From Thermoplasmata archaeon (GTDB lineage Archaea > Thermoplasmatota > Thermoplasmata > GCA-020350865): a stretch of DNA of 15,516 nt. This document shows, in pieces, positions 1 through 15,516 of the stretch. Within the stretch, counting starts at the first letter, position 1, and the number at the start of each line of letters is the position of its first letter. Location of the stretch: the NCBI GenBank assembly GCA_020350865.1, contig CP070726.1, positions 2,352,243 through 2,367,758 of the forward strand. The letters run 5' to 3'. The notes under the pieces were generated by a model. It was not told where the DNA came from. It saw only the letters and a list, made by a program, of their open reading frames with translations, and did no database searches. The position numbers were made by a program, and so were the translations under genes.

Positions 1-3000
1 CTTGAACCATCAGCAGAGATGGCGGAAGAAGGTGTTGTGGAACCTGAGCCATTAGAAGAGGTGGAGGAAGTAATCGGGGAACCTGAGGTCCTCAAAGAGG
101 CGGAAGATGTTGTGGCATATGAAGAATTAATAGCAGAAGGACCTGAAGTAATCGAGGGGTTAGCCGAGGAGTATGAACCATTAGAAGGCCTAGAAGAAGT
201 TGAAAAGGCCCAAGGATTGGAGGACCTGGATTTAGAGGCTATCGAAGAGAAGATTAAGGATCTGGAAGCCATAGAAGAGGTGGGAGAGGTTGAGAAGGCA
301 AGACAAACCGGGCTGTTGGAAGAATTGGAGGAACTGGAAAAATCCCTAGGAATATTAGTGGCGGAGGGATTTGATGGGATTGAGTTGGCCGAAGAGCCCG
401 GGGAAATGGAAGGGATTGCCGAAGAGGGAGGTTACGACGAAGTAAAGGAAGCAATGAAAATAGAGGGACTCCATGTGTGTCCTGCCTGTGGGGTGCCCGT
501 GGAATTAGGTGATTCTGAGTGTTACAATTGCGGGGTTATAATCCGCGAGTTGGAGCCTTTGGCAGAAGAAGCCGTAAAAAAGGGCGTTTCAAGGGATTTT
601 AGGCAAAGATGGGATAAACTGAGCAGCATGGAAGAAATGGGGGAACTTGACCTTGTAATGGAGGATCTGGAGCGGGAATCTCAGGCCATTGCAGAAGTGG
701 AAGAAACACTGCCATCTTGCCCGATTTGTGATAAAAGACTCGGTTACGGTGTGGAAATCTGTCCCGAATGCGGTGCTGACGTAGAGCCTGTGACGGAAAT
801 CGAATCCCTTGAGGAACTTACCCAAGGCCTTGAAGCCGCACCTCCCTCCCGCATTTCATATACTGGTCTTACGAACGGTCTCACCAATGGCCTTACAAAT
901 GGTCTCACAAACGGGATAAAGGCACAAAAAGGCGAGGGGACGGGAATCCTTTCGGATGGTCTGATCAACGGGAACGGCATTACAAATGGCCTCACCAACG
1001 GTCTCACAAACGGTTTGACCAATGGACTTCGTTCAATTAAACGCGGATTGACAAACGGGATCACCAACGGCAACGGTATCACAAATGGACTGGGTATGGC
1101 CCCAAAAGCAGGTGGTCGTGATGGAAGTATTGTTAGGGTCATAGCGGTGTTTATCCTTGTTGTTGTGCTGATCTCAGCACCTTTCATTATCAACAGATTG
1201 ATCATTGTCGAGCCGAAAGTTATGGGTATCGATGGTGTTTTTAATGAATGGAAGGGAATTCAGGGCTTTTCAGATTCACTGGTAGATCAGGATGAAAATC
1301 AGGATGTGAACCTTGTGGATTACAAGGTCAGTGTCGATCGGTTGGCCACCCTCTCCATGTATTCCAAGGTAAACGGAACCATGCTCAACGGGAAATACGG
1401 TTTGGATACCATCAACATCTTCATAGACGAGGATAGTGATGTGCAAACAGGGTACAGAATTTCGTCCCTGGGTGCGGATAAAATGGTTTCGATTGTAGGC
1501 TGGAACAATGATATCTATTTCAGAGGCTACAGCCAGTTCAATGACACCCGCTCCCAATTGGATATTAACGGCTTTACAAACTTCGCCAGGGTTTCTGCTG
1601 CCATCGATGATGACGAGCTCGAAACAAAGTTATTTCTTTCGGGGCTCCACCTTCAGCCACAAAAACCAATAAAATTGCTTTTTGCCGCAAGGGACACGGC
1701 AGGCAACGAAGATCTATCAGACATTATCATCAGCCAGGTTGAGGGAGTTCTCATAGTCAACGAGACGAGCATCGGGCCGTCAACAATCCCCTTAGGATCA
1801 AGGAATGTGACCATGTTGAAGCTGGATATGAGGGCAGTGGGCAGGGATGTAACAATCGATTCCATAAACATAACCCTCACAGGGTCCGTGAATATGACAG
1901 GTATCGCCAACCTTACAGCCCACTTCGACACGAATCACGATGACCTTGTTGATGATGGTGACATTGATATCGCAACCGGTGTTTTCTCTCATAAAAAGGC
2001 GTCAATTCCATTGGACTTCGTTATCCCTGAGGGAAGTAATGAGACGGTGCTCATCTCATTGGACGTAACCGATAATGCAGATAACAACTCCACTGTAGGA
2101 GTGAGGATCGCTGAGCCAAAAGACTTGATCGCAAGCCCCAGCGTGCTCACTCTAAACCCGATATACCTCACAAACTGCTACATTGGTAATGTGGATGGTT
2201 CAGTAAGAATCGATGGTGCCTTCGGCGAATGGGATGAATCCGAACAAAGGATCGATGGTTTCGAGGATGTGAAATTAAAAAACAGCCCTTTAGGTAATCC
2301 CAACATTGATATATTGGGTTATGACATCAAATGCGATGAAGAATCCCTTTCTCTGTACTTTGATGTTGAAGGGACCATGCTGGGCGGTGTCAGTGTGCCC
2401 TGGAACGCATCGCGGCCTCCACCTCCAACCCCCCCTGCCAAAAAGGCAGACAGTGATGGCGATGGCATAAACGATATTGATGAACAGCCCGGTTTTGAGC
2501 ATGATTTTGACAACGATGTGGGCAAGCCTGACAACCTCACCAACCCTGTCAGACCCAATACGGGTCCTGATGGGTACGATCACGACAGCGATAATGACGG
2601 TGATGAGGACTGGCCCTGGGGAAACGATACCAAGCTTGTCCAGCCCGTCACTGGCAGTATAAAATACAATGGACCTCCCCCGGCAAGACCAAAGCTCCCA
2701 GTAATCACAGGTGAGGATGTTGTGTACATCTTCATCGACAGTGACAACAATCCTCAAACCGGTTACTTTGTGAACCAGTATATTGGTGCGGATTACATGC
2801 TCAATATTACGTGTAAGGCCAATGTCATTAACTCAAAACTGCTGTGCAAATTCGATTCCCGAGACACTACACTATGGAAATGGAGTATTATGGACAATGT
2901 GGATGCTGCTGTCAACTCAAGGGCTCTGGAAACACAGGTGGATTTTGATGACATTCTAATATCCAGTAACACCAGTTTCAATGTTTGGTTCTTCACCACG

Positions 3001-3525
3001 GACTGGCGGGATGGTTGGGACCTGTCGGATTCCGGTATTTTCGAGACAAGGGGCAACAGAGGGACAAGGGCAGGACTGGGTGGTGTCCTCATAAACGAGG
3101 TCTTTCCTGACGCCAATGGCTGGGTCGAGCTGTACAATCCGACGAAAAAAGCAGTGGACCTTACAGATTGGACCCTCGTATGGAGCGGTGGTACATATAC
3201 AGTTCCTGCAGGAACCTCTATTCAACCTGGACAGTATCTTGTATTTTACATCGGCACCATTCAATCCACAGACAATGTAGCACTTTTCAATCACAAGGGC
3301 CAAAAAAAGGATGAAACGGGTTTTTCTAACATACCACCCGGATTAGGTTGGGGCCGGGATCCTGCAAAAATCCAGAATTGGTACATCACATACCCCACCG
3401 CAGGAGGTCAGAATGTCATTCCCGAATACCAAGATGCCCTAGTACCCATACTTTTTATGCTGTTTGTATGCATTTTAATATATCGTAAAAGACACGAAAA
3501 AATATTTAAAAGGATAAGCTCATGA
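1..3525 (+). CDS. Giant membrane-anchored surface protein: zinc ribbons, GLTN repeats, CBM9-like and lamin-tail domains (5' end outside window)
   Basis: The reading frame is open from base 1, and the codons before the first ATG (at 19) have the same Glu-rich character, so the true start probably lies upstream. Numbering from that ATG: a very acidic region (1-150); two CxxC-CxxC zinc ribbons (C154/C157/C168/C171 and C234/C237/C248/C251); GLTN repeats (283-359); a membrane helix (about 372-393). Outside the membrane there is an 'IDGxFxEW' module (404 on) and a second copy (731 on), which look like CBM9/DOMON-type sugar-binding folds. A beta-rich spacer lies between them, and an Asp-rich, probably calcium-binding insert (811-864) lies in the second copy. 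A lamin-tail-like domain starts near 1023 ('INEVFPDANGWVELYNP'). The end is VIPEY, a hydrophobic helix and a basic tail, resembling a PEF-type sorting signal or a plain anchor. Zinc ribbons are inferred to face the cytoplasm. The stop overlaps the next ATG. The molecular function is unknown. Confidence 0.88.
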   Translation, partial: LEPSAEMAEEGVVEPEPLEEVEEVIGEPEVLKEAEDVVAYEELIAEGPEVIEGLAEEYEPLEGLEEVEKAQGLEDLDLEAIEEKIKDLEAIEEVGEVEKARQTGLLEELEELEKSLGILVAEGFDGIELAEEPGEMEGIAEEGGYDEVKEAMKIEGLHVCPACGVPVELGDSECYNCGVIIRELEPLAEEAVKKGVSRDFRQRWDKLSSMEEMGELDLVMEDLERESQAIAEVEETLPSCPICDKRLGYGVEICPECGADVEPVTEIESLEELTQGLEAAPPSRISYTGLTNGLTNGLTNGLTNGIKAQKGEGTGILSDGLINGNGITNGLTNGLTNGLTNGLRSIKRGLTNGITNGNGITNGLGMAPKAGGRDGSIVRVIAVFILVVVLISAPFIINRLIIVEPKVMGIDGVFNEWKGIQGFSDSLVDQDENQDVNLVDYKVSVDRLATLSMYSKVNGTMLNGKYGLDTINIFIDEDSDVQTGYRISSLGADKMVSIVGWNNDIYFRGYSQFNDTRSQLDINGFTNFARVSAAIDDDELETKLFLSGLHLQPQKPIKLLFAARDTAGNEDLSDIIISQVEGVLIVNETSIGPSTIPLGSRNVTMLKLDMRAVGRDVTIDSINITLTGSVNMTGIANLTAHFDTNHDDLVDDGDIDIATGVFSHKKASIPLDFVIPEGSNETVLISLDVTDNADNNSTVGVRIAEPKDLIASPSVLTLNPIYLTNCYIGNVDGSVRIDGAFGEWDESEQRIDGFEDVKLKNSPLGNPNIDILGYDIKCDEESLSLYFDVEGTMLGGVSVPWNASRPPPPTPPAKKADSDGDGINDIDEQPGFEHDFDNDVGKPDNLTNPVRPNTGPDGYDHDSDNDGDEDWPWGNDTKLVQPVTGSIKYNGPPPARPKLPVITGEDVVYIFIDSDNNPQTGYFVNQYIGADYMLNITCKANVINSKLLCKFDSRDTTLWKWSIMDNVDAAVNSRALETQVDFDDILISSNTSFNVWFFTTDWRDGWDLSDSGIFETRGNRGTRAGLGGVLINEVFPDANGWVELYNPTKKAVDLTDWTLVWSGGTYTVPAGTSIQPGQYLVFYIGTIQSTDNVALFNHKGQKKDETGFSNIPPGLGWGRDPAKIQNWYITYPTAGGQNVIPEYQDALVPILFMLFVCILIYRKRHEKIFKRISS
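865..1095 (+). repeat. Gly-(Leu/Ile)-Thr-Asn tetrapeptide repeat linker
   Basis: Within residues 283-359 there are 12 G-[L/I]-[T/I]-N units (11 G[LI]TN and one GLIN). They fall in three clusters of 4, 5 and 3, broken by short spacers, two of which contain basic residues. The units are encoded by different synonymous codons (for example ggt-ctt-acg-aac, ggc-ctt-aca-aat, gga-ttg-aca-aac); only ggt-ctc-aca-aac clearly recurs. The repeat is therefore kept at protein level and is not a fresh DNA tandem duplication. It joins the zinc ribbons to the membrane helix. I recall similar repeats in uncultured Thermoplasmata proteins but cannot verify this here. Confidence 0.9.
3511..3514 (+). promoter_or_regulatory. 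Shine-Dalgarno-like AGGA for the coupled nuclease gene
   Basis: AGGA lies 7 bases before the ATG at 3522, inside the last codons of the upstream gene. Together with the ATGA overlap (3522-3525) it supports this start over a second in-frame ATG at 3537, and suggests translational coupling. Confidence 0.45.
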
Positions 3526-5189
3526 GAAAAAACGAAATGCCCGCAAAAAAGGTATCTGCAAGCGATGTTGAGAAGTACGGATACTGCCCGTTAAGCTGGT
3601 GGCTCAGCGAGCAGGGCGCTCATGGCGATGATGAGAGCCTGAGGAGGGGTAGCAAGCAACACGCCGAAATCGGCAACGAAGTGAAAAAGATCAAGAAAAG
3701 AGAAGAGTTCAGCCGGGAATCAGAGCGCAGTGTTCTATGGTTTTCACTGATAGCAATAGTAATCGGTGTCAATGCCGTTGCCATTGTGTACAGCGCTTAC
3801 GCACCCCAAACACAGGGCAGGGCCGTAACTATTCTGCTTTCCATTATCGCCGTCCTTTGGGTGATAGTGGCGCTGCTGTTCTTTTATACAGGTATGAAAA
3901 GCGAAAAGATCATCAGGGGAGAAGACGGGGTTACAACCAGCCGCGAAGGGACTATTGAGGACGAAAAAGCGGTTGAGGCCATAGAACCGTACTTGGATTG
4001 GAGACAGATACCCAAGGAGGCGAGATGGACAACATTGGCATTTTTCATAGTAAGTGGTGTCCTGGCTTTGCATGGTGTGATCATCCTGGTAAGTTTCGGT
4101 AATATATATTCCGATATTTTAAGCAACATATTCATAATCATGGCCCTCATATGGCTTATCGGCAGTGCCTTCTTTTACATCATCTCTCTTAGACGGGAAT
4201 TTAGAGCGAAAAAATCCAGTAAAATAGCCACTTTGGAGGGCAGGAAACAAACCTTCACTGACTCCGAGATATCTGTTGTGCTTTTCGCGCTGATAGCCAC
4301 CGTATTGGCATCCAACAGCCTCACCATATATCAAAACCCCCATACCGTCATTGGAATGATCATCATGATCGTGGCCATTGTTTGGCTGTACGGAGGATTC
4401 GCTTTTCTGTACACTACTTTCAGAGCCAACCTGAAGCTCAGGCTGCTCATCATAGATCACCGTAAAATTGAGGAGCGGGCTTCAAAGAAGAAACTGCCCA
4501 CCGCCTCGAATCTGGAGTACGCCATCGAAGAGGGTGCATTCGAATATGAACGTGCTGTTATCTGGTTTGCAGCGGTGGCCATGGTTTTAGCACTGAATGC
4601 CATCATCATGAACTTCTCTGAAAGTATTGAAGAACTGAGAGGATCCATCATAGCCCACATATTTGTAATAGTGGCCCTCATCTGGCTCATTGGAGCCTCC
4701 TTCTTCTTGTATATGGTGCTGCGCTACTCCCATCTTGCCATCTGGCTGAGACAAAAGCATGGAATCGAGGAGGGATCCATCGAGTATGTGGATGCGGACG
4801 GAGAGAATCCAAACATCCTTGTTTCGAACAAATACAGCCTCAGGGGACGGCCAGATTATATCCTCAGAAGGGGAAGTTATCTGATACCCGTGGAGGTAAA
4901 GACCGGGAGAGTGCCAAGAGGCCCTCTATTTTCCCATATTCTCCAACTTGCAGCATACTGTTTACTGATAGAAGACAAATACAATAGCGCTCCCCCTTAC
5001 GGCATTATCAGGTACTCCAATGCCCAGCATGAAATAGACTATACAGAGGACCTGAAAAACATACTGACCGCCAAACTCAAGGACATGAGAGAAATCATGG
5101 AGAAAGGGGTGGCACACAGGAACCATAACCGGCCAAACAAGTGTAAGGGTTGTTCCCGGCGTGATATATGCTCCGAAAAGTTGGCATGA
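3522..5189 (+). CDS. Membrane-embedded Cas4/RecB-like PD-(D/E)XK nuclease with split catalytic domain
   Basis: The two ends together carry the full Cas4-type signature. The N-terminus has C22 in 'YCPLSWWL' and H47 in 'GSKQH'. The C-terminus has D445 in 'GRPD', E458 and K460 in 'VEVK', Q475 and Y479 in 'QLAAY', then C541, C544 and C550. In the Cas4/PDDEXK_1 family the His, Asp, Glu and Lys form the metal-dependent nuclease site, and one N-terminal plus three C-terminal cysteines hold a [4Fe-4S] cluster. Cas4 proteins are usually about 200 residues; this one has 555 because residues about 69-401 are eight membrane helices in four repeated hairpins, inserted between the His motif and the GRPD motif. 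The soluble ends should lie on the same side, since the helix number is even, presumably cytoplasmic. The gene overlaps the surface-protein gene by ATGA. No cas1, cas2 or CRISPR repeats are present, so a role in adaptation is not supported. DNA cleavage or processing at the membrane is inference. Confidence 0.88.
   Translation: MRKNEMPAKKVSASDVEKYGYCPLSWWLSEQGAHGDDESLRRGSKQHAEIGNEVKKIKKREEFSRESERSVLWFSLIAIVIGVNAVAIVYSAYAPQTQGRAVTILLSIIAVLWVIVALLFFYTGMKSEKIIRGEDGVTTSREGTIEDEKAVEAIEPYLDWRQIPKEARWTTLAFFIVSGVLALHGVIILVSFGNIYSDILSNIFIIMALIWLIGSAFFYIISLRREFRAKKSSKIATLEGRKQTFTDSEISVVLFALIATVLASNSLTIYQNPHTVIGMIIMIVAIVWLYGGFAFLYTTFRANLKLRLLIIDHRKIEERASKKKLPTASNLEYAIEEGAFEYERAVIWFAAVAMVLALNAIIMNFSESIEELRGSIIAHIFVIVALIWLIGASFFLYMVLRYSHLAIWLRQKHGIEEGSIEYVDADGENPNILVSNKYSLRGRPDYILRRGSYLIPVEVKTGRVPRGPLFSHILQLAAYCLLIEDKYNSAPPYGIIRYSNAQHEIDYTEDLKNILTAKLKDMREIMEKGVAHRNHNRPNKCKGCSRRDICSEKLA
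3726..4724 (+). repeat. Four-fold repeated two-helix membrane hairpin inside the nuclease
   Basis: Four units are visible at residues about 69-126, 166-223, 247-300 and 342-401. Each has a first helix ending in a small/polar pattern (N84, H184, N265 and N359 at matching positions), a short loop, and a second helix with an aligned Trp core: 'AVLWVIVALLFFY', 'ALIWLIGSAFFY', 'AIVWLYGGFAFLY' and 'ALIWLIGASFFLY'. Charged linkers of roughly 20-40 residues separate the units. The copies have diverged strongly, so this is an old internal duplication. Confidence 0.85.
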
Positions 5190-5254: not shown

Positions 5255-5623
5255 CTAAACCTCCTTTTTGCCCCCTTTTTCTTCCCTTATAAGTCCCCCC
5301 TCAGCCATGATGGTTTCCAGTTTCTCATTTATGGCGGTTATATCCTGCCTCATTTTGAGCATCTCCTCTTCGAAAGGGGTAAAGGATCCAACGGACAATA
5401 TCCTGTGGGAAAGCAACATGCCGACGAAGATTGCACCTATCAGTGCCAGGATAATCATTGCGGACCAGCTGACTATGGCTCCCACTACCCAAAAGTATAC
5501 ACTGTCAATATCCAAAATCCCGGTAAAAATGGAAATCAATGGGACCACTACTAATAATGCGATTATAAATAGAATTATGAGCCACAAAACGTACGAAAAC
5601 GGGGTTTTTACTGCCAGTTTCAT
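5255..5623 (-). CDS. Small two-helix membrane protein with C-terminal coiled coil
   Basis: The 122-residue product has two hydrophobic helices (about 12-35 and 43-71). A charged segment follows (about 83-108, 'EEEMLKMRQDITAINEKLET') with heptad-like spacing typical of a short coiled coil, then a Lys/Glu/Gly tail. I do not recognise the family. The start ATG overlaps the TGA of the upstream lipoprotein gene (5620-5623). A GGAGA stretch on the minus strand, at plus positions 5631-5635, sits at suitable Shine-Dalgarno distance. The two genes are therefore very likely one transcript, and the products may act together at the membrane. It converges with the nuclease gene; the 65 bases between them hold nothing clear beyond pyrimidine-rich tracts. 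Confidence 0.8.
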   Translation of the reverse strand: MKLAVKTPFSYVLWLIILFIIALLVVVPLISIFTGILDIDSVYFWVVGAIVSWSAMIILALIGAIFVGMLLSHRILSVGSFTPFEEEMLKMRQDITAINEKLETIMAEGGLIREEKGGKKEV

Positions 5624-6045
5624 TCTTTTCTCTCCATAATCAAGGTGTACGGCAAGGAGCGCTCGATTGTATCATCGTGCCTCTCATCCTCGATTTGCAG
5701 TGTAATTTCATTATCCTCAGTAAGTATTGTAAGGTTGGCTGCATATTCATATTGCTTCAAATCATCCCATACCGAGACATTGAGTATAAATCTATCTAAT
5801 ATAGTGGTGAGGTGAAGCGCATATGTGAAATTCTCTGTGGCAGTGACGTTGTTTATTTGTATAGTGATATTCGAGAATCGATAATCATCCAAGCCATGAA
5901 CATAAACCTTTGTCTCCTTGTTCTCCTCGATGTGGTCGATGAGAAGCATGGGAATGGACGATAGGGGCGAGGGCGGTCCGTTCGTACACCCTGCAAAGAA
6001 GCAAAGCAGTAAAACTAAGCCCGTACCAAAAGCCTTACCCTGCAT
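5620..6045 (-). CDS. Small secreted lipoprotein, leaderless start
   Basis: From the ATG at 6045 the product has 141 residues. It opens with a short signal peptide (basic residue K4, hydrophobic core 9-18) and a lipobox 'FFAGC', so C20 would be the lipidated residue. The rest is beta-rich with several N-x-T/S sequons ('NITIQ', 'NVTATENFT') and no recognisable family. A GTG at 6063 would add six residues, but it lies in the spacer between a TATA box (6068-6075) and the expected transcription start. The box centre is about 26 bases from the 6045 ATG, which fits a leaderless mRNA starting at that codon. The gene overlaps the following membrane protein gene by ATGA. Function is unknown; an envelope partner of the two-helix protein is an inference. 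Confidence 0.8.
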   Translation of the reverse strand: MQGKAFGTGLVLLLCFFAGCTNGPPSPLSSIPMLLIDHIEENKETKVYVHGLDDYRFSNITIQINNVTATENFTYALHLTTILDRFILNVSVWDDLKQYEYAANLTILTEDNEITLQIEDERHDDTIERSLPYTLIMERKE

Positions 6046-6067
6046 CACATCCTTATCAATCACATAC

Positions 6068-6527: not shown

Positions 6528-8441
6528 CTAATTGGGCACCTGCCATTCACAATTCTCACTTACTTGTACCCAATAACCATATCCCGTTTCCAATGAACCG
6601 AGGGAGTTGAATTTATCCGGCTTTCCGGTGCTGTTGGAAAGGAAGCGGCCGCCACCATTACCTGATCGATAAGATTGTACGTTTTTCCAGTTCACACCGT
6701 CTAAGGTATCATTTAAATTCCTGTATATAAAAGAGGGATAACCCACTAAATTCCATCCAGCATAAAGATCGATAACCGTTGAGGACGGTATTTGACCTGC
6801 CGTAACCAAATAATCGGAGGCATTGGTATAAAGCCATAAAGCCATGGTATTGTTAAGCTTTTGTAAATCCCCAGATTCTGTATCTTTCCAGTGATCCATG
6901 GCATCGGATGCATCGTAGTAATATGCCACCCTGAGTGTATCATTTACCGTCTGGAGTACGTCCTCAGGCATGGTTTTCGAAAGAACGAGTGGTGTGGAGA
7001 CAAGGTTCCATCCCATGCTCAGTTGCCTGACATATTTACCGGCAACCTGCGTGTTGGTATCGTTGTACAGTTTCCAATCCACAGCCCTCACTATATAATA
7101 ATAATCTGTGGTATCTCCATCACCTGCCCCAAAATCGGTCCACTTGGTCTTCGAGGTGGAGGCAAAGGGGTATGTGAAATCAAAGACTCCAACTGTATCG
7201 CTCTTGTAGATGTTATAATAAGAAACATCGCTTGAGTTCGAAGCGGTCCAGTTCAGCACGATATCGCCTTTATCAACCCATGCCGTAAGATTTGACGGGG
7301 GATTGGGCACCTCCTCATACGGGCTCACATCGAAGTATATGGGGTTGGAAAATGCAACATTTGTCTCCCCTTTGAACATGTCGTGGTTGTTTGTTCTGAC
7401 CTCGGCCCTGAGATAGGTGTCGGCTGAGGCCATGTATCCATATGATACTGAGAATGGGCCCTGTGACACGCTTTCGGAATATATCTCAGCTCCGTTGCTG
7501 ATGATGCGCACAACCGAGTTCTCCACCGCTTCACCGGTAACCTCTATGCTCACGCTCTTTGAGCCGGTTGAGTAGATGGTGTCCCCCATGATGCAACCGT
7601 CCACCGTGAAGTTCATTGTGGGGCCGTCCGAAACATAACACCTCCCGTGCCTTACCGCCTCCATTATCCCGCGGACTGTAAATTCCCTGGCGTAGATGTA
7701 GTTGCGGGGATAACCGATGGCACCCCTTGTGTTGAAGAGATCCCCGTAATCAGGGGTGTTGTCGGCGTTTTTACAGTCGCTTTCCCCTAGAGCGGTCCTT
7801 CGCATTCCGTCCATCAGATACTGGTCCCACCGATCCAATGCCTCGCCGTCCATGGTGGTTGGAAAGGCCCTGTTGAATCCCCCGTACCCATGGTAGATGC
7901 TCATGGCATCGAAGTGGTCATAAACGCCAAAATAATCATAGTTGTCATCCTCATCAGGGGCAAATGGGTGGGGGACGTAGGCGAGCCCTCCCTTGGCATG
8001 GAGCTCGTCTATGATATCCCCGATGGTGTGGTTGGCATCGGCATACCAATCCACCAGGGAGTCTGTGCCCCAGGCGATGATCTCATTTGTGTAGGTGCCG
8101 TTCTCCAGCACCATCACCTCCTGGCCCAGTCCGCAGATAAAGGTTGCGTTTGTTTCCTGGAGGCAGTTATCCTTTGCAGCAATTGTATTGCCATCGGTGA
8201 TGAATATCCAATCCAGGCCGCGCTCCTGGGCCTTTTGCGCCATTTCGGACACAGTGCTCGTGCCGCTTGAATAGGCGGTATGCATGTGACCGTCGCCCAC
8301 GATTTCGATATAATCACCGTAATTGCTGGGACCTCCCAGAGGCTCCACCCCTCCATCACCCGCATTACCCGTGTTTCCGGCCTTCGCTGGAAAGAACGTG
8401 AGCAACAACAGAGCGAGACTGAGAAGCACAACTCGTTTCAT
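6528..8441 (-). CDS. Secreted PHP-domain (CehA/McbA-like) protein with FN3 and GWNLV modules
   Basis: The 637-residue product has a signal peptide (KR, a leucine-rich core, probable cleavage after AKA near residue 21). Residues about 45-275 match the PHP fold in its CehA/McbA-like form: D50, H52 and H54 ('GDGHMHT'), D83 ('ITDGNT'), E108, H158 ('VPHP'), S221/D222 ('GESDCK'), then 'AVRHGRCYVSDGP', which resembles the usual GR-x-[FY]-V-x-x-GP end. PHP proteins hydrolyse phosphate or carbamate esters with bound metals. Here the His normally after 'TD' is G84 and the His normally in 'SDxH' is K224, so activity may be altered or lost. An FN3-like domain spans about 379-473. Two 'GWNLV' modules follow (477 and 562), a type I associate with secreted Thermoplasmata proteins. 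There is no C-terminal anchor. AGAGGCG about 10 bases before the ATG is a plausible ribosome site. The gene is divergent from the RHS gene. Confidence 0.88.
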   Translation of the reverse strand: MKRVVLLSLALLLLTFFPAKAGNTGNAGDGGVEPLGGPSNYGDYIEIVGDGHMHTAYSSGTSTVSEMAQKAQERGLDWIFITDGNTIAAKDNCLQETNATFICGLGQEVMVLENGTYTNEIIAWGTDSLVDWYADANHTIGDIIDELHAKGGLAYVPHPFAPDEDDNYDYFGVYDHFDAMSIYHGYGGFNRAFPTTMDGEALDRWDQYLMDGMRRTALGESDCKNADNTPDYGDLFNTRGAIGYPRNYIYAREFTVRGIMEAVRHGRCYVSDGPTMNFTVDGCIMGDTIYSTGSKSVSIEVTGEAVENSVVRIISNGAEIYSESVSQGPFSVSYGYMASADTYLRAEVRTNNHDMFKGETNVAFSNPIYFDVSPYEEVPNPPSNLTAWVDKGDIVLNWTASNSSDVSYYNIYKSDTVGVFDFTYPFASTSKTKWTDFGAGDGDTTDYYYIVRAVDWKLYNDTNTQVAGKYVRQLSMGWNLVSTPLVLSKTMPEDVLQTVNDTLRVAYYYDASDAMDHWKDTESGDLQKLNNTMALWLYTNASDYLVTAGQIPSSTVIDLYAGWNLVGYPSFIYRNLNDTLDGVNWKNVQSYRSGNGGGRFLSNSTGKPDKFNSLGSLETGYGYWVQVSENCEWQVPN

Positions 8442-8649: not shown

Positions 8650-8748
8650 ATGGATATGGTTGTAAAAAAAAGGTTATACCATTTTACAGCGTTTTTCCTG
8701 GATAATCTGGGCGGAATGCTTGAATCAATTGCCGAGGTGTTGAAATGA
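8650..8748 (+). CDS. Candidate 32-residue small protein overlapping the RHS start
   Basis: ATG at 8650 begins a frame of 32 codons ending in TGA at 8746-8748, which overlaps the RHS ATG as ATGA (8745-8748). The product starts MDMVVKKRLYH and continues as a probable amphipathic or hydrophobic helix ('FTAFFLDNLGGMLESIAEV'). No Shine-Dalgarno sequence precedes it, and a second ATG lies two codons in. The RHS Shine-Dalgarno sequence (GAGGTG) lies inside its last codons. The overlap repeats the ATGA coupling seen at 3522 and 5620, which supports a real coupled ORF, but at this length chance cannot be excluded. It could be a small partner peptide, a leader peptide controlling RHS translation, or spurious. 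Confidence 0.35.
   Translation: MDMVVKKRLYHFTAFFLDNLGGMLESIAEVLK
8734..8739 (+). promoter_or_regulatory. Strong Shine-Dalgarno site (GAGGTG) for the RHS gene
   Basis: GAGGTG is a six-base match to the archaeal anti-Shine-Dalgarno complement, 5 bases before the ATG at 8745. It decides that start over the ATG two codons later (8751). Confidence 0.75.
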
Positions 8749-11700
8749 AGATGAGGGAGTCAAGAGATAATAATAGCTGTGTCCATGTATGTAAAAAGAG
8801 GATAAGTGTGAAGACGAGGATAGTTGCGATCTTCGCCATCGTGATGATAATATTGAGTACATTTCCCCTTCAGATGGTGCTGATGGAGATGCTGTCCAAT
8901 AGGGAATCCGAACAGTGGGGTGCTGCGGCCTCACCCCAACCTGACATCACCCAGAATCCACTTCGTGACGAGAACTACACGGGTAATACCGGCTATGTCC
9001 AATGGAATTACTACGTGGGCGGAACCGTGAACGCCGCAAATGGCAACCTGTACCTCTCGAAAACGGATATCACGGTTATGGGCAGGGGTTTCGAAATCGA
9101 AATGACTCGATGCTACAATAGCCACAATGCCGAGTTTTTCGGGGTTTTGGGCCATGGATGGACCCATAACTACAATGTCTATCTCATTGAAAATGTGGAT
9201 GGCTCGGTCCTTGTGATCGACGGTACCGGGGCTGTGTTCAATTATACAAGTCTGGGCGGTGGTGTCTTTGCCTCACCCCCCGGAAGAAACAATACCCGCT
9301 TGTATAAGAATCCGGATAGCTCGTTTGCACTGCGGCAAAAAGACGGCTCAACACATAATTTCAACGCTACGGGAACCATCATGAATATCACGGACAAGAA
9401 CCAGAACATGCTGAACATGACGTACGTAGGGGGGAATCTTGACAAGGTTGATGACGGGACCGGAATATATATACAATTCACGTACAATCCCAATGGAACC
9501 ATAAGCAGTGTGATAGATACACTGGGTCGTGAGATCGATTACGGGTACGATGCTTTCGGGAACCTAAATTTGGTAGTCGATGCCATGGGCTATAACACCT
9601 CGTTCGAATATTATCCCAACCATTACATCTACTCCTCCATAAACCGCCTCAATGTCTCGACTTTCTATATCTATGACAGCGATTTCCGAGCAGGATCCAT
9701 TTGGAAGGGGCTTTACGACCCCATGGCAGGTGAACATCATTCGAATTTTCGATTGTACGCCCTTCAGTACGGTCATCAAATGGTGTACGTGACCGATGCA
9801 AAAGGATATAAAACACTGATTCAGATAAACGAAAACGGCAATCCCATACATATCATCGATGCACTGGGGGGAATGACGACCATGGCATGGGACGATGATA
9901 TGAACCTGGAAAGGTTTGTGGACTCAAACAGACATATGTGGGCGTTTGAGTACGATGCTTACGGAAACCAAATCAACCTGACAGACCCTATGGGCTACTA
10001 CAAAACTTATGAATGGAATAACACGGACACCTCCTCCAAGTTACTCTGTCTTCTTGAAAACATCACGTATCCCCGGGGCAACACTGTAAGATACAGATAC
10101 GATGTAAATGGTAATCTGTATAAAATGATTGATGCCCAGGACAATTACACCTTGTTTAACCACGACGCGTTCGGGAACCTATTGAATTTTACCGACTTTA
10201 ACGGCAATCTCTATCAGATGGAATATAATGGTCATGGTTACGCGGAGAACTTAACCAATCCCACGATGAATATCACCAGGTTGAGATACGACAGTGTTGG
10301 AAGGCTGGTTAACAGAACCGATGCCAACCTTCATTCAACGCTCTACCAGTACGGCGATAATGACCGTTTGATAAGCACCACCGATGCAACGAACAATCAA
10401 ACATTATTCTATTATAATGCAGAGGGAACACTTATTCGGACGGTTGATGCCAAAGGCCGAGCAACCGAATATGACAGCAATCTCGTAAACAGGGTAAACC
10501 GTATAGAGGATGCATCAGGGAACGAGACGAACTATGTCTACGATACCAGGGGTAATCTCATCTCACAGGTGAATTTTATTGGGGGGCGATCAAAGACTGA
10601 GTACGACGCACTGGGAAGGGTAATCCGCATATGCGATGCACTGGGATATAATGAAACTTACAATTACGATGCGGTTGGTAATGCGATTTCCATCACCAAT
10701 AAAAATAATTTCACAACGAGATATGAGTATGATTCCCTAAATCGTCTTGTCAAAACTATCGATCCTTTGGGTAATACAGAAATTATCGATTATGACGAGA
10801 ACGGTAACATTGTCGCGAAAACAGATAGAAATTCAAATACGGTATACTACGAATACGACATTCTAAACAGGCTCGTTAAGTTCACGGACTCCCTAGGCAA
10901 TTATTCGACATACGATTATGATAATAATGGAAATATCGTTAAAATTACAGACGCAAACGGTCATGCAACCGAGTACATTTACGATTCCCTGAACAGGCTC
11001 ACAACCGAAAGAAACGCTTTGGGTGCGGAATTCAATTATTCCTACGACCCTGTGGGAAATATCATTGAAACAAAGGATAGAAACGGAAATATGATTTCAT
11101 TTGAGTACGACGCCCTCAACCGGCTCATTGTTACAATCGATCCCCTTGGTAACGCCTCTACAAGGTTCTACAACGAAGTAGGCAATCTCATCAGGGAGGT
11201 AGATTTTAGAGGATTCGAAACTACATACACATACGATGAACTGAATCGGATAACTCAAATTACCGATCCAACCAATAACATCACCTCATACACCTATGAT
11301 GCAATGGGACATGTCCTCACGCAAACGGATGCCAACGGCAATACACACAGCTTCCAGTACAACGCAAGGGGGGATATCATTGGAATCACCGACCCCCTGG
11401 GATACTCAAGGAAATACGAATACGACGGTATGGGCAATATCGTGCGATATGAAGACCAGAACAATTACATAACATTTTTCGAATACGATGCGAACAACAA
11501 CCTCCGAAGGAAAATAGATGCCATGGGATACGAGACCTCTTATGAATACGACAACGTGGGCAATCAAATCTCTATCAACGACTCTAACTATCACATCACA
11601 TCGTATGAATACGATGGCCTCAATCGGCTGATAAGAATAACAAGCCAATTAGGTTCTGAGATCCAGTACGGCTACGACGCTTATGGGAATTATATCTTTA

Positions 11701-12800
11701 CCATCCACCCCAACGGAGATAGGGTAAATTACAGCTACAACGAAATCAACCGTATGATACGTGTCGAATACCCAGATGGAGGAAATTTCACCAGGGAGTT
11801 CGATCCCAACGGGAATCTCATCCGCATTCAAAATAATGCCACAGATGGCCTCGACGAGGTGATAACCAGACAGTTCGATGCTCTGGATCGGTTGACATCG
11901 GAACAGGTGGATTACGGACTTTTTACACATTCTGTGAGTTACTTATACGATGAAAATGGCAACAGAGAACAGATGACCGATCCCACCGGAAATATGACAA
12001 ATTACACGTATGATCCGCTAAACCGTTTGATTACTATAAACGATTCATCCGGGGTTACAATCGGGTTTACTTATGACAATGCGGGTAGAAGGATAGGGAT
12101 GGATCTGGGAAACGGAGTGACTACAACCTACATTTACGATGCGGCAGATCGACTCATCAATATTACAAATGAGAACGCATCAGGCATCATTTCCATGTCG
12201 AATTACACCTATGACCCCTCGGGCCATCGGACAGGTGTCCTTAATCAAAAACTGGAACTCACGCAGTACGAATACGATGATTTGTACCGCCTCACAAGAG
12301 CCCTGTATCCCTCGGGCCAGGATGTTCGTTACATCTACGATGGTGTCGGAAATCGTCTTGTTTTGAACGACACTGGTGTGGAAACGTCCTACCAGTACGA
12401 TGAGGACAACCGATTGACCAGTATTGATGGGGGTGCGGTTGATTACACCTACAATGCCAACGGCAATCTCATTACCCGAACCGAAGGCGCCCTTGTTACC
12501 ACCTACACTTATGATTATGAAAGACGATTGATCAATGTTACATTACCCGATCTCACTGGGGTCTCATACCAGTATTCCTCCCAGGGAAAACGTCTTTTAA
12601 GGACCAATTCCTCGGAAACTGCCTTCTTCTTTTACAGTTTCGAGGACGTTATTCTCGATCTAAACGGCTCGGGAGATATTAACGCAAGGTATATCCACGG
12701 CCCTGGCTATGATGAGCCTCTCTGTGTGAACCGCCAGGCAGAGGATTATTTCTACCACCTGGACGGTCTGGGAAGCGTTGCTGCCATATCGAACAGTTAA
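8745..12800 (+). CDS. RHS/YD-repeat surface protein, N-terminal 1351 residues, ending at an in-frame TAA
   Basis: The product opens with a basic segment and a hydrophobic helix (about 25-45) that acts as signal or anchor. From about residue 92, 'GGTVNAANGNLYLSKTDI' and 'RCYNSHN...GHGWTHNYNV' match the DUF6531 domain found at the start of RHS shells. From about residue 258 to the end there are dozens of YD repeats of the type 'YEYDxLNRLxxxxDxxGN'. In bacterial RHS, Tc-toxin and teneurin proteins these build a beta-cage that encloses a C-terminal part. The frame stops at TAA (12798-12800) just after 'DGLGSVAAISNS', in the middle of the conserved core, and the missing core end continues in the same frame. 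On its own this is a truncated RHS protein without the 'RYYxPxxGRFLSxDP' closing segment. Many N-x-S/T sequons and few cysteines fit a location outside the cell. Confidence 0.9.
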   Translation: MKMRESRDNNSCVHVCKKRISVKTRIVAIFAIVMIILSTFPLQMVLMEMLSNRESEQWGAAASPQPDITQNPLRDENYTGNTGYVQWNYYVGGTVNAANGNLYLSKTDITVMGRGFEIEMTRCYNSHNAEFFGVLGHGWTHNYNVYLIENVDGSVLVIDGTGAVFNYTSLGGGVFASPPGRNNTRLYKNPDSSFALRQKDGSTHNFNATGTIMNITDKNQNMLNMTYVGGNLDKVDDGTGIYIQFTYNPNGTISSVIDTLGREIDYGYDAFGNLNLVVDAMGYNTSFEYYPNHYIYSSINRLNVSTFYIYDSDFRAGSIWKGLYDPMAGEHHSNFRLYALQYGHQMVYVTDAKGYKTLIQINENGNPIHIIDALGGMTTMAWDDDMNLERFVDSNRHMWAFEYDAYGNQINLTDPMGYYKTYEWNNTDTSSKLLCLLENITYPRGNTVRYRYDVNGNLYKMIDAQDNYTLFNHDAFGNLLNFTDFNGNLYQMEYNGHGYAENLTNPTMNITRLRYDSVGRLVNRTDANLHSTLYQYGDNDRLISTTDATNNQTLFYYNAEGTLIRTVDAKGRATEYDSNLVNRVNRIEDASGNETNYVYDTRGNLISQVNFIGGRSKTEYDALGRVIRICDALGYNETYNYDAVGNAISITNKNNFTTRYEYDSLNRLVKTIDPLGNTEIIDYDENGNIVAKTDRNSNTVYYEYDILNRLVKFTDSLGNYSTYDYDNNGNIVKITDANGHATEYIYDSLNRLTTERNALGAEFNYSYDPVGNIIETKDRNGNMISFEYDALNRLIVTIDPLGNASTRFYNEVGNLIREVDFRGFETTYTYDELNRITQITDPTNNITSYTYDAMGHVLTQTDANGNTHSFQYNARGDIIGITDPLGYSRKYEYDGMGNIVRYEDQNNYITFFEYDANNNLRRKIDAMGYETSYEYDNVGNQISINDSNYHITSYEYDGLNRLIRITSQLGSEIQYGYDAYGNYIFTIHPNGDRVNYSYNEINRMIRVEYPDGGNFTREFDPNGNLIRIQNNATDGLDEVITRQFDALDRLTSEQVDYGLFTHSVSYLYDENGNREQMTDPTGNMTNYTYDPLNRLITINDSSGVTIGFTYDNAGRRIGMDLGNGVTTTYIYDAADRLINITNENASGIISMSNYTYDPSGHRTGVLNQKLELTQYEYDDLYRLTRALYPSGQDVRYIYDGVGNRLVLNDTGVETSYQYDEDNRLTSIDGGAVDYTYNANGNLITRTEGALVTTYTYDYERRLINVTLPDLTGVSYQYSSQGKRLLRTNSSETAFFFYSFEDVILDLNGSGDINARYIHGPGYDEPLCVNRQAEDYFYHLDGLGSVAAISNS

Positions 12801-13052
12801 GATGCTCGGATCGCAGAATTTGCATACGATGCATTCGGCCAAGTGATATCAGCTTACTCCGCGTTAGAGAACAGATATCTTTTTACCTCAAGGGAATGGG
12901 ATGAGGAAACCGGCCTGTATTATTATCGAGCACGATATTATGCTCCTGAGATAGGCAGGTTCCTCAGTCAGGACCCATTGATCAACAGTGGCATCGTTAA
13001 TTTGTACGTCTATGTTGACTGCGACCCTGTCAATTCAATCGATCCAACAGGT
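9516..13052 (+). repeat. YD-repeat array (RHS shell)
   Basis: The array has a period of about 20-22 residues with core 'x-Y-x-Y-D-x-x-G-N' alternating with 'L-N-R-L'. It runs from 'DTLGREIDYGYD' to the conserved terminal DPTG (13041-13052) and is crossed by the TAA at 12798. The copies have diverged at DNA level, so this is not a recent tandem duplication. Confidence 0.85.
12798..12800 (+). other. In-frame TAA interrupting the RHS core
   Basis: The codons before it read 'HLDGLGSVAAISNS' and those after it 'DARIAEFAYDAFG'. In RHS proteins this stretch is continuous, and removing the single TAA codon restores it with one residue in its place. CAA, GAA or AAA to TAA are one-base routes. No frameshift is needed. 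Confidence 0.9.
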
Positions 13053-15516
13053 GAAGATCTAATTTTTATCCCTGCCGCTCCAAGATTCGAGAGATTTATG
13101 GATGCATTCGGAATAAATGGCCGTTACTATCCATATACCAGATACGATCCAGATTGCATAGCTCGACTGGTTAGGGAATTCGAGAAAGCTTATGAGAAAT
13201 TGGAGCAGGATGCCAGGAAAATGGCAAGGGAGCTGGAAAGGCTCCAGGATACCATTATAAACCAATGGAATAAGGCGAACAGGGATTTTGCCATAAACAT
13301 GATATTCAATATCGCAGCCATTGCCGCCTCCATTGCCACGGGAGGACTGGCGGGTATAGCAATCGGTGTCGCAATAGCTGGTGGGAAGATACTATACAAC
13401 GAATTGTCCGGCTCCGCCACATCCAGTGTAACACAGCAAGGAATGGAAACCGCAGTGGGAACCACAGTGGGACATTTTACGGGGGAGCACCTATCCGACA
13501 TGTACGGTAAGGCGGTGGGAAATGTATTAGGAAAGGGGCTTGGCGTTTTGGGCGGGATGTTCAGCAGTGTTCTCGATATCTTAAATCACGCGGATACAAT
13601 CGAGGGGTTCAGGAGAGCCATGAAGAAAATCAAGGATGAGTTGACTCCGCAACTGAGGGATTGGGTCAGAGAAACATATAATACCCTATTAAAAGCACTG
13701 CAGGACGCAATTGAGAAGTGGTGCAAGAGAAAGAAGATAGAAACTCCATCGACTACAACTGTTGTGGATGATACAGCAACAGAGATTGGGCATCTGGAAA
13801 CACCGCCTTCCACAACGGCACCGCCATCTACATCAGGTGATGCATCCACAACAGGTGTGGATCACAGGGATGTGGGTATTCACATCGATTCGGATGATCC
13901 GCCAATAGGTGTTGAGGTCCCGATTTTAGTGGAGGTCACAAACAACGGATTTGACACTACCGAAAACATCTCCCTTCACCTCAAGGTATTTAAGAAGAAC
14001 GTGACAAGGGATATCCTGCTGGTTGCCGACGAATCCGACGGTGCAAACATGTGGTTCGAGGAGGCCTTAAATGCACTGAACATCACCTACGATATCGTCT
14101 TTGTGGATACTGAATATACGCCGGTATTCACCGATGGGAACACCTCGACAAAGGATCTCGAGGACTACGATGTAATCCTCTGGGAGTGCAGCAATGATGC
14201 ATCAGGTACACTGAACGGGTCGGACAGGGACATCGCCCTTGCCCTTCCACCCGGCCTTCACGACACCGTCTTCGAGCACAAGACCGCCTCACTTGCACAA
14301 CAGGAGCTCGAGAAGTTCCTGGATGACGGAGGCTGCCTCTTTGTTGGAGGTGAGGGCATCATGAAGGAATGGCCCCAGACAAGTGGCACCCTGATGAGCG
14401 ATTACATGTTTGCTAACGGCTACGGAACCGATACCTTTGATTTAATGACCGACGGGGTTCCGGGAACCATTGGCGATGGGCTTTCCCTTGCGCTCAGTGG
14501 CGGAAACGGCTCGAACTTCGAGCTGAACTCAAGCAGCATACACTCGGTAAAACCCGGTGGCCAGGTGGACTTCCTGTTCGAGTGCGGCATCGCAGGAATC
14601 GAGGCTGATACAGGCAAAAACAAGACGGTTTTGTTCGCCTACGATTTCGATTCCATAGCCCTGTTCCTGGAAAGGACGCTGGTCATGAAACGGATTCTTG
14701 ACTTCCTTGACTGCCGGTACGGGGATGGAAACGGTACCCCTGAAGACGACCAGCCCAACAATGGTTGCCCCCCCATCACACCGGGCCATTCCACCACCGT
14801 ACCGCTTTCCACGGTATTCACAGCATCGGGAGATTATACTGTGGAGGTTGTTGTCATGCCCGGTGGTAACTATCCCGAAAACGATATTGCAGTGGGAAGC
14901 AAGTACGTTCCCTTCGACGATGCGCGCATCGACCGGTGCAATATCTATGATGGCGATTATGTAACACCAGGCGCACACGATGTTATAGTAACCCTGGCCA
15001 ATCATTTCGTGGATCGCACCTTTGATACCTCTATCATTCTGCAAAGATATGATGCATACATTTGGGTCGACGAAGAGTTCGATGATTGGTGTCCAGATAC
15101 AAATCCCTGTGGATGGACGCATTTTGCTGATCCCGTTTCCAATTACTACTGGGAATTTGGGACACGCTGGACACCGGAAGGTGATAATCCAATAGCCTTT
15201 CTCTATCCATTCTGGCTTGATGAACCCATTGATACGTATCTTATTTCACCACCTTGCGATCTAACCGGCACTGAACTGAGTTTTCTTTATGCAAGCGATT
15301 TTTCAGGTGAGAATCATACACTAGAGGTTAAACTTGCTTTGAATGCTGTGGCCCCCTACAGCAGGGCGAATTTCACAGAAACTTTATTGGTCCTGGACAA
15401 CAGCAGTCAACCAAATAATAACTGGTCTGCCCCCCTTGTCATTGATCTTTCACCGTATGTAGGCAATACGGTCAACATTGCCTTTTTCTACAATTCCACC
15501 AATGGAAGTGCCGCGG
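12801..15516 (+). CDS. Continuation of the RHS gene past the stop: core end plus large adhesin-like C-terminus (partial, possible pseudogene half)
   Basis: The RHS frame stays open for 905 codons to the window edge. It first completes the core: 'YDAFGQVISAY', 'TSREWDEETGLYYYRARYY', 'GRFLSQDPL', 'DPVNSIDPTG' (to 13052). Then come a charged coiled coil (about 13167-13257), a Gly/Ala/Ile-rich hydrophobic stretch (about 13299-13385), and a Thr/Pro/Ser linker (about 13740-13860). Next is a CARDB-like half (from 13869) with a large alpha/beta domain inserted (14007-14714), followed by its second half (to about 14912). A second CARDB-like half then leads into a segment starting 'EEFDDWCPDTNPCGWTHF', like choice-of-anchor-J adhesin domains, cut by the window edge. 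Independent starts are poor: the first in-frame GTG is at 12843 and the first ATG at 13098, neither with a clear ribosome site. Either this is the lost half of a nonsense-mutated gene, or the stop is read through or is a sequence error. Confidence 0.8.
14007..14714 (+). other. Alpha/beta domain (class I amidotransferase-like fold) inserted in a CARDB-like domain
   Basis: The segment begins 'RDILLVADESDGANMWFEEAL', continues 'DLEDYDVILWECS', 'LEKFLDDGGCLFVGGEG' and ends 'KTVLFAYDFDSI...MKRILDFLDC'. This pattern of strand, helix and glycine-rich turn resembles the ThuA/class I glutamine-amidotransferase-like folds found in secreted archaeal proteins. 'GGCLFVGGEG' sits where a nucleophile elbow would lie, but no convincing Cys-His-Glu triad can be assigned, so it may bind rather than catalyse. 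Confidence 0.5.

Follow-up and report, generated by a model that had tools for sequence, protein, structure and literature searches.

A Cas4-type nuclease of Thermoplasmatota predicted to be interrupted by the membrane, with relatives encoded by two genes

Introduction

Why should the catalytic domain of a DNA nuclease be interrupted by predicted membrane helices, and on which DNA might such an enzyme act? The question is raised by an open reading frame, here termed M4 (3522..5189, forward strand, ATG start codon, 555 amino acids), that lies within a stretch of 15,516 nucleotides from a Thermoplasmata archaeon, referred to below as the window. A published survey presents Cas4 either as part of CRISPR adaptation, in which it serves as a nuclease, or as a stand-alone protein that is common in archaea and uncharacterised (PMC5704561). 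In the main text of that survey 'insertion' and 'Thermoplasmat' are absent, and the sole occurrence of 'membrane' concerns an unrelated gene. Many proteins of the M4 family carry the database name 'CRISPR-associated exonuclease Cas4'.

The nuclease domain and its residues

M4 was assigned from its reading frame, profile matches and alignment. It exceeds the cut-off of three profiles: TIGR00372 (cas4) with 89.4 bits over residues 428–551 (curated equivalog cut-off 65), PF12705 with 53.7 bits (cut-off 22) and PF01930 with 42.3 bits (cut-off 22.7). In PADLOC it matches the Cas4 and Cas4–Cas1 profiles, and DruK more weakly. The N-terminal part taken alone has no Pfam match above cut-off (Exo5 at residues 6–74, E = 0.089).

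The nuclease domain is divided into two parts. The N-terminal part (residues 11–65; 3552..3716, forward strand), placed by alignment and predicted model, contains C22, which we take to be an iron–sulfur ligand position, and H47, presumably the RecB-type histidine. The C-terminal part (residues 405–555; 4734..5186, forward strand) contains D445, E458, K460, Q475, Y479, C541, C544 and C550. A preliminary description had singled out these ten residues; their positions are correct, and all ten, including the H, D, E and K of the PD-(D/E)XK site and the Q...Y motif, are invariant in an alignment of 23 sequences. Among 120 sequences these motifs are counted in 115–116, KCxxCSRxxxC in all 120 and YCPLxWW in 108. 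When 117 sequences are aligned, E458, K460, Q475, Y479 and the three C-terminal cysteines remain invariant, with C22, H47 and D445 each kept in at least 90%; homologues thus retain the catalytic residues and four cysteines whose loss would have spoken against the original assignment.

The predicted model of the full protein aligns with solved Cas4 across both nuclease parts and has a Cas4 fold, the closest solved structure being the Cas4 of type I-C Cas4–Cas1–Cas2. A helix spanning residues 37–93 carries H47 and runs on into the first helix of the membrane insert. The model is weak in the membrane part (ten-residue means of 44–79) and poor at the C-terminal end, where the final 25 residues, including the three cysteines, score 42–60. 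Foldseek matches of the membrane part are helical bundles, and were set aside as generic. By its residues, four cysteines, curated profile and modelled fold M4 is a member of the Cas4 family, with a predicted iron–sulfur cluster and predicted exonuclease activity. The first reading of the gene, as a Cas4/PDDEXK-type nuclease split by membrane helices, is borne out by the profiles, by the model and by the eight segments described below.

The predicted membrane insert

The two nuclease parts are separated by 339 residues (66–404), in keeping with the earlier estimate of about 330. Eight Kyte–Doolittle segments start at residues 71, 102, 172, 203, 250, 276, 345 and 382. These are arranged as four hairpins, all on the forward strand: hairpin 1 (TM1–2, residues 67–127, 3720..3902), hairpin 2 (TM3–4, residues 165–226, 4014..4199), hairpin 3 (TM5–6, residues 245–304, 4254..4433) and hairpin 4 (TM7–8, residues 339–404, 4536..4733). 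Each is defined by hydropathy and hairpin comparison, and the first also by the model. The hairpins are alike in five of the six pairs (z = 4.1–12.6, scored against shuffles that preserve the hydrophobic pattern), hairpins 1 and 2 giving only z = 1.9.

A profile search had been proposed for homologues with the same split, and relatives across Thermoplasmatota have two, four or eight helices inserted at the same place. Insert lengths fall into three separate bands of 113–121 (two helices), 170–216 (four) and 336–425 residues (eight) in a set of 213 sequences, on whose tree the helix class clusters. In a set of 223, the number of helices is even in 212, and the content of K and R per residue is 0.209 in the linkers between hairpins against 0.069 in the loops within them; from both sets identical or motif-less sequences had been removed. 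The loop charges would place both nuclease halves in the cytosol. Together with the model spanning both halves and the even helix counts, they support the earlier proposal that the insertion closes on itself, so that the halves would meet on one face of the membrane.

Forms encoded by two genes

In 30 genomes, at 31 loci in all, two adjacent genes encode the enzyme in place of one. The first chain has one cysteine, usually the histidine, and a single C-terminal helix; the second begins with one helix, followed by the D, E and K residues and three cysteines. An N-half reading frame lies directly upstream in 19 of 20 loci with a single-helix C-half, and the split form recurs at 12 of another 30 loci. 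At L148, for instance, the N-half occupies positions 1160–1429 and the C-half 1429–1947. In three pairs that were scanned, the match to PF12705 covers just the beginning of the model for the N-halves (positions 2–47 at most, below cut-off) and its end for the C-halves (100–247, above cut-off). The cysteine, GxPD, Q..Y and CxxC..C motifs are present in all of 19 pairs, PxExK in 18 and the H motif in 17. Some pairs may be inactive, since the H motif is missing from L150 and L151, and PxExK also from L150. At locus L154 the C-half frame ends before the cysteine motif, and an N-half was not found. Among 120 listed database proteins that consist of the C-half, 91 have one helix before GxPD and 29 none by the threshold used, and the N-half motif is absent upstream in all of them. 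A Cuniculiplasma MAG is among the carriers of the C-half.

Because the catalytic residues and cysteines divide over two adjacent genes, one active site, and perhaps one iron–sulfur site, appears to be common to two single-pass proteins. Programmed frameshifting, giving one chain rather than two, is possible where the frames overlap: at L138 the only C-half start is a GTG that lies 42 nt ahead of the point where the N-half stop ends, and L140 and L141 have C-half starts both before and after that stop. It is unlikely at L136, L137, L139, L144, L149 and L150, where the C-half starts 2–24 nt past the N-half stop.

Rooted on two distant soluble Cas4 parts, the tree gives the order split, two, four and eight helices; long-branch attraction may contribute, several split sequences have an unusual letter composition, and the deepest forks are weak. 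A profile search with the C-terminal half gave 1712 matches at E ≤ 0.001. Among the 120 of these that were listed there is no full-length relative that lacks the insert, by a test requiring a YCP-type motif that altered motifs would escape and that leaves room for soluble intermediates.

Distribution and gene neighbourhood

M4 matches occur in up to 253 of 389 genomes, a number that overstates the family: 27 genomes with weak hits comprise 18 with split forms, two with truncated fused forms, one with a C-half for which no N-half was found and six that read as non-members. With no match in 136 of the 389, the gene is not universal. A scan of viral contigs with the patterns YCPL[SNT]WW and P[RK]GP[LH]FSH only, which divergent forms would escape, gave 15 stretches, none of them related, and a viral origin was rejected for want of a viral relative by this pattern search.

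In the window, M4 is preceded by a gene of 1168 amino acids (19..3525, forward strand) with weak zinc ribbon matches and a lamin tail domain (LTD) in Pfam and, by inspection, one membrane helix in mid-protein and another near the C-terminus. Its stop codon overlaps the M4 start (ATGA), and the two are possibly co-translated. Two convergent genes follow. The first encodes a small membrane protein of 122 amino acids (5255..5623, reverse strand), whose family is found at the same place in 38 of 104 distinct loci (116 sequences less 12 with identical last 150 residues). The second (5620..6063, reverse strand, 147 amino acids) appears exported or lipoprotein-like by inspection; its family is at the same place in 17 of the 104, and a different one (f3) in 20 more.

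Elsewhere the neighbours look like housekeeping genes, among them ribosomal L15e, GlmS and triose-phosphate isomerase, and the neighbourhoods resemble core genome rather than CRISPR loci. A TPD-domain gene and a secreted LTD-phospholipase-D (LTD-PLD) protein are also among the neighbours of the family. In one split clade the order SMC, ScpA-like gene, N-half, C-half is found in seven of seven wider loci, with no SMC beside M4 at any other locus examined. The gene between SMC and the N-half is ScpA-like at most, since its Pfam matches are below cut-off in L177 (SMC_ScpA, E = 0.005; Rad21_Rec8, E = 0.076) and L175 (E = 0.012 and 0.009), and L173 and L176 have no ScpA-type match.

No cas1 or cas2 is present among the window proteins scanned, and no cas gene was recognised among the neighbour proteins read, only part of which were scanned. 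Cas1 is found in only 27 of 97 genomes, and some genomes (e.g. G001, G007, G009 and G010) have M4 with no Cas1 match. M4 is therefore a solo-Cas4. L157, a protein from the same phylum that looks on inspection like a Cas4–Cas1 fusion, is distinct from M4. On our reading M4 belongs to the chromosome, is widespread in Thermoplasmatota and is not a gene of CRISPR adaptation.

Discussion

The most likely role of M4 is that of a housekeeping nuclease that handles DNA at the membrane, with predicted activity and topology. It would be an integral enzyme of the cytoplasmic membrane, a PD-(D/E)XK nuclease of Cas4 type. Its Cys/His part, at the start of the chain, would lie in the cytosol; one, two or four hairpins would then cross the membrane, and the D/E/K part with the three cysteines would again be cytosolic, the active site and presumed [4Fe-4S] cluster thereby forming at the inner membrane face. 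This assembly is suggested by the sequence, the predicted model, the charge pattern and the two-gene relatives. In the simplest state two adjacent genes would give single-pass products that must meet to make the enzyme. Its job would be to trim or degrade DNA ends held at the membrane, in normal genome upkeep or DNA turnover; the activity is suggested by the family, and the role by the neighbouring SMC (in one clade), TPD-domain gene and secreted LTD-PLD protein. Taken as a whole, this explanation is reasonably probable.

A possible but doubtful alternative is that M4 handles DNA from outside, for nutrition or uptake, with LTD-PLD cutting at the surface and M4 degrading the strand at the inner face. 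Of 136 sequences examined, 27 have an LTD-2xPLD gene that is co-directional with M4 and lies directly upstream of it or overlaps it; three of these, L081, L087 and L089, are repeats with a nuclease end identical to that of another locus. Pieces of other matches, such as a PKD-only match in L032, were dropped from the count. Six more have one within 5 kb, in different arrangements. It lies downstream by about 1.16 kb in L066, L115 and L120 and by 1.26 kb in L116; in L117 it is 4.6 kb upstream, and in L118 it is 3.1 kb upstream and on the opposite strand. Among about 66 genomes for which the positions of both M4 and LTD-PLD are listed, a reading by eye puts the two at most 5 kb apart in eight, against a random expectation of about 0.4 in 1.8 Mb, the eight not being independent lineages. 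The upstream gene of the window also has an LTD, as reportedly has the extracellular nuclease ExeM (PMC6085458). Against this, LTD-PLD is found in 14 of the 20 first-listed M4-negative genomes and in 263 of 389 overall, giving no sign of co-occurrence; 20 wider split loci have a single LTD-PLD match; and lipids, not DNA, may be the substrate of the PLD domains. ComEC was found in none of 97 Thermoplasmatota genomes (the control search was positive in 10 of 14 named genomes), so uptake through ComEC was rejected, though other channels may serve.

An extended scheme, speculative and unlikely, is that a phylum-wide membrane nuclease began as two single-pass proteins sharing the active site and [4Fe-4S] cluster, active only when the chains meet at a DNA-loaded membrane site; that these later fused and the hairpins multiplied to give four and eight helices; and that with surface LTD-PLD they form a ComEC-independent path and trap for DNA crossing the membrane.

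It is quite improbable that M4 is an antiviral nuclease cutting viral DNA during injection, by analogy with SNIPE. M4 is likewise a predicted membrane-bound nuclease, SNIPE shows that such a mechanism exists (PMC13190303), and the PLD domains of the LTD-PLD neighbour give it matches to DrmC defence profiles. However, M4 is widespread, its helix class clusters on the tree and it sits amid genes reading as housekeeping; four window neighbours scanned have no PADLOC match; and SNIPE homologues reach up to 10% of genomes in several clades, according to the same source. CRISPR adaptation, as many database names have it, is very improbable indeed and was rejected as the main role on the absence of cas1 and cas2 from the window proteins scanned and on M4 genomes with no Cas1 match, despite the TIGR00372 score and the type I-C fold.

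Returning to the housekeeping reading, division of the catalytic domain by membrane helices, and in some relatives over two genes, suggests that DNA on the cytoplasmic side of the cell membrane is the substrate of the M4 family. The name 'CRISPR-associated exonuclease Cas4' is probably misleading for this family. A widespread archaeal solo-Cas4 would thus be a membrane enzyme with its catalytic domain interrupted by the membrane, and its function becomes testable at one place, the inner membrane face. Within one enzyme family there is a natural two-gene version and a graded series of two, four and eight helices, and with it a natural case of an iron–sulfur site predicted to be common to two membrane chains.

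Comparison with known systems

M4 has the catalytic motifs, four-cysteine pattern and fold of the Cas4 family (PF01930, TIGR00372, COG1468), and differs in that its nuclease domain is broken by two to eight membrane helices or placed on two genes. No description of a two-gene Cas4 was found in the literature searched, and the split version of a membrane Cas4 nuclease appears to be what is new. MGME1, Dna2, AdnA, Exo5 and lambda exonuclease match the structure less well than Cas4 and, to our knowledge, none is membrane-embedded. ComEC is also a membrane protein linked to DNA handling; M4 has no match to its Competence domain (PF03772) in Pfam up to E = 0.1. The inheritance of solo-cas4, largely vertical according to part of the survey cited above (PMC5704561), resembles that of M4. 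SNIPE (GIY-YIG and DUF4041) is likewise a nuclease held at the cytoplasmic membrane, but as described in its report (PMC13190303) its nuclease domain is unrelated, it usually has a single membrane helix at the N-terminus, and its spread is the patchy one of a defence gene; neither GIY-YIG nor DUF4041 is found in M4 by a Pfam scan up to E = 0.1.

Organization of the M4 protein

The M4 gene (3522–5189, + strand) encodes 555 residues, and by its profile matches the protein is a putative Cas4/PD-(D/E)XK nuclease. In the profile scan TIGR00372 (cas4) scores 89.4 bits against a cut-off of 65, PF12705 53.7 bits and PF01930 42.3 bits, with all matches in residues 404–551. The preliminary description had listed catalytic and cysteine residues on either side of a membrane insert. 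Every one of these residues is present and is invariant across 23 aligned relatives, and the insert is borne out by eight hydrophobic segments in residues 66–404. The segments form four mutually similar hairpins (z = 4.1–12.6 for five pairs, with z only 1.9 for hairpins 1 and 2).

The 223 distinct proteins of the family contain two (n = 8), three (n = 10), four (n = 158), eight (n = 46) or nine (n = 1) helices, where the odd numbers look like threshold effects. Insert length falls into three bands, of 113–121, 170–216 and 336–425 residues. The helix class (two, four or eight helices between the nuclease halves) requires seven changes on a tree of 213 rows, against a shuffled mean of 48. The linkers between hairpins contain 0.209 Lys + Arg per residue, compared with 0.069 in the loops within hairpins. 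By the positive-inside rule, under which positively charged loops tend to lie on the cytosolic side of a membrane, a cytosolic location is predicted for the linkers and for the two parts of the nuclease.

Conservation and distribution

A protein search in which 8000 candidates were scored gave 1070 relatives at E ≤ 0.001; most of the 120 listed have lengths around 550 or 330 residues. Within these 120, the window protein included, KCxxCSRxxxC is present in all, HRNHxR in 117, GRPD, PxExKTGR and SHIxQ...Y in 116 each, G..H in 115 and YCPLxWW in 108. Relatives are encoded on 141 stretches of GTDB species contigs; the best 80 of these all have archaeal titles (Thermoplasmata/Thermoplasmatota, Methanomassiliicoccales, DHVE2, Aciduliprofundum, ‘Euryarchaeota’ or plain ‘archaeon’). 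The owners need not all be Thermoplasmatota; one C-half protein carries the name of a Methanothrix MAG. M4 matches occur in 253 of 389 Thermoplasmatota genomes at E ≤ 0.001 (368 for ribosomal protein uL2). This is an upper bound, because the 27 weak-hit genomes examined include six that read as non-members, together with 18 split forms, two truncated fused forms and one C-half alone.

The two-gene form

Genomes with weak hits carry the C-half as an ORF of its own that begins with one helix. Directly upstream on the same strand at 19 of 20 lone C-half loci lies an N-half ORF of 80–111 residues, with a (Y/F)C motif, usually G..H, and one helix whose end lies a mean of two residues ahead of the stop. 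In the twentieth (L154) the C-half ORF ends before the cysteine motif. A second sample, 30 loci from another 76 genomes, contains 12 split and 16 fused loci; L187 appears to be a fused form whose motif is altered, and L211 was assigned to neither form. The split form thus totals 31 loci in 30 genomes (L136–L144, L146–L153, L156, L163 and 12 of L186–L215), where the C-half carries the N-terminal helix, the D/E/K residues and three cysteines. All of the first 19 pairs have the Cys, GxPD, Q..Y and CxxC..C; 18 have PxExK and 17 the H motif. Pfam independently assigns the halves of three pairs to different parts of PF12705: each N-half matches the start (model 2–47 at most, below cut-off), each C-half the end (model 100–247, above cut-off). 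Among 120 listed C-half proteins, whose owners include Cuniculiplasma sp. and Thermoplasmataceae, one helix precedes GxPD in 91 and none in 29 by the threshold used; the N-half motif is found in none.

In N-halves the 15 residues preceding the helix hold 3.2 Lys + Arg, and a two-residue tail follows it. For the single-helix C-halves of the database list the values are 0.1 before the helix and 5.1 over the 15 residues past it. This distribution suggests that both pieces face the cytosol and that the break corresponds to what is the outer loop in the fused forms. At L138–L142 the last codons of the N-half contain GGTGAT (GGTGGT in L138) four bases before the stop, a string resembling an archaeal Shine–Dalgarno sequence for the C-half.

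A 64-row tree with two soluble Cas4 parts as its root places the split forms at the base as three groups and unites the fused forms in a single clade (97/90). The topology points to the pair as the earlier state, but long branches leave this order uncertain.

Genomic neighbourhood

The start codon of M4 and the stop codon of the preceding gene (19–3525), which encodes an 1168-residue lamin tail domain (LTD) protein, overlap as ATGA; L001 and L002 are arranged likewise. In all three LTD proteins a GLTNG-repeat stretch precedes the first membrane helix. Directly upstream in 27 of 136 sequences, three being repeats, is a gene encoding an LTD and two phospholipase D domains (LTD-PLD), whose product has a signal-like N-terminal sequence and a helix at its C-terminus; six further loci have one within 5 kb in other arrangements (in all, some of L005–L043, plus L066, L115–L118 and L120). 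At L029, L031, L032, L034, L038, L041 and L043 the two ORFs overlap by ~160 bases. LTD-PLD occurs in 263 of 389 Thermoplasmatota genomes overall and in 14 of the first 20 listed M4-negative genomes; it is equally frequent there, and the association is therefore one of proximity without co-occurrence.

In one split clade, SMC is followed at all seven wider loci (L173–L179) by a ScpA-like gene, the N-half, the C-half and a class I Tyr/Trp-tRNA synthetase gene, and genes resembling FEN1 and RadB lie close by. SMC was found at none of the other loci examined. A gene of the TPD-domain family, a family of PD-(D/E)XK-type nucleases, is upstream in 13 of 104 loci, and a small membrane protein gene is convergent in 38 of 104, the stops mostly overlapping by four bases. 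At other loci the neighbours include probable L15e, GlmS or triose-phosphate isomerase genes, judged from their sequences. In eight genomes, read by eye, M4 and uL2 share a contig and are 26–31 kb apart.

Elsewhere in the window, 6528–8441 (− strand) encodes a CehA/McbA-family PHP metallohydrolase (NCBIfam, 164 bits). Two consecutive ORFs (8745–12800 and 12843–15515) encode a long RHS/YD-repeat protein on this archaeal contig; the second extends beyond the window end and by eye apparently contains the RHS core end.

Possible function

Distribution and context speak against a role in CRISPR adaptation or in mobile defence. The LTD-PLD link, which is lineage-bound, points to externally arriving DNA. 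These proteins are possibly a surface nuclease family; ExeM (PMC6085458) is described as an LTD-bearing extracellular nuclease. ComEC was found in none of 97 Thermoplasmatota genomes, and the control was positive in 10 of 14 named genomes. The SMC link, also lineage-bound, points to the chromosome. Most support is for M4 as a chromosomal housekeeping nuclease at the inner membrane face.

Neither a membrane-embedded nor a two-gene Cas4 was found in listings from searches of the open-licence literature, nor in the passages covered of a Cas4 phylogenomics paper (PMC5704561). SNIPE (PMC13190303) offers a functional parallel to M4, with an unrelated nuclease.
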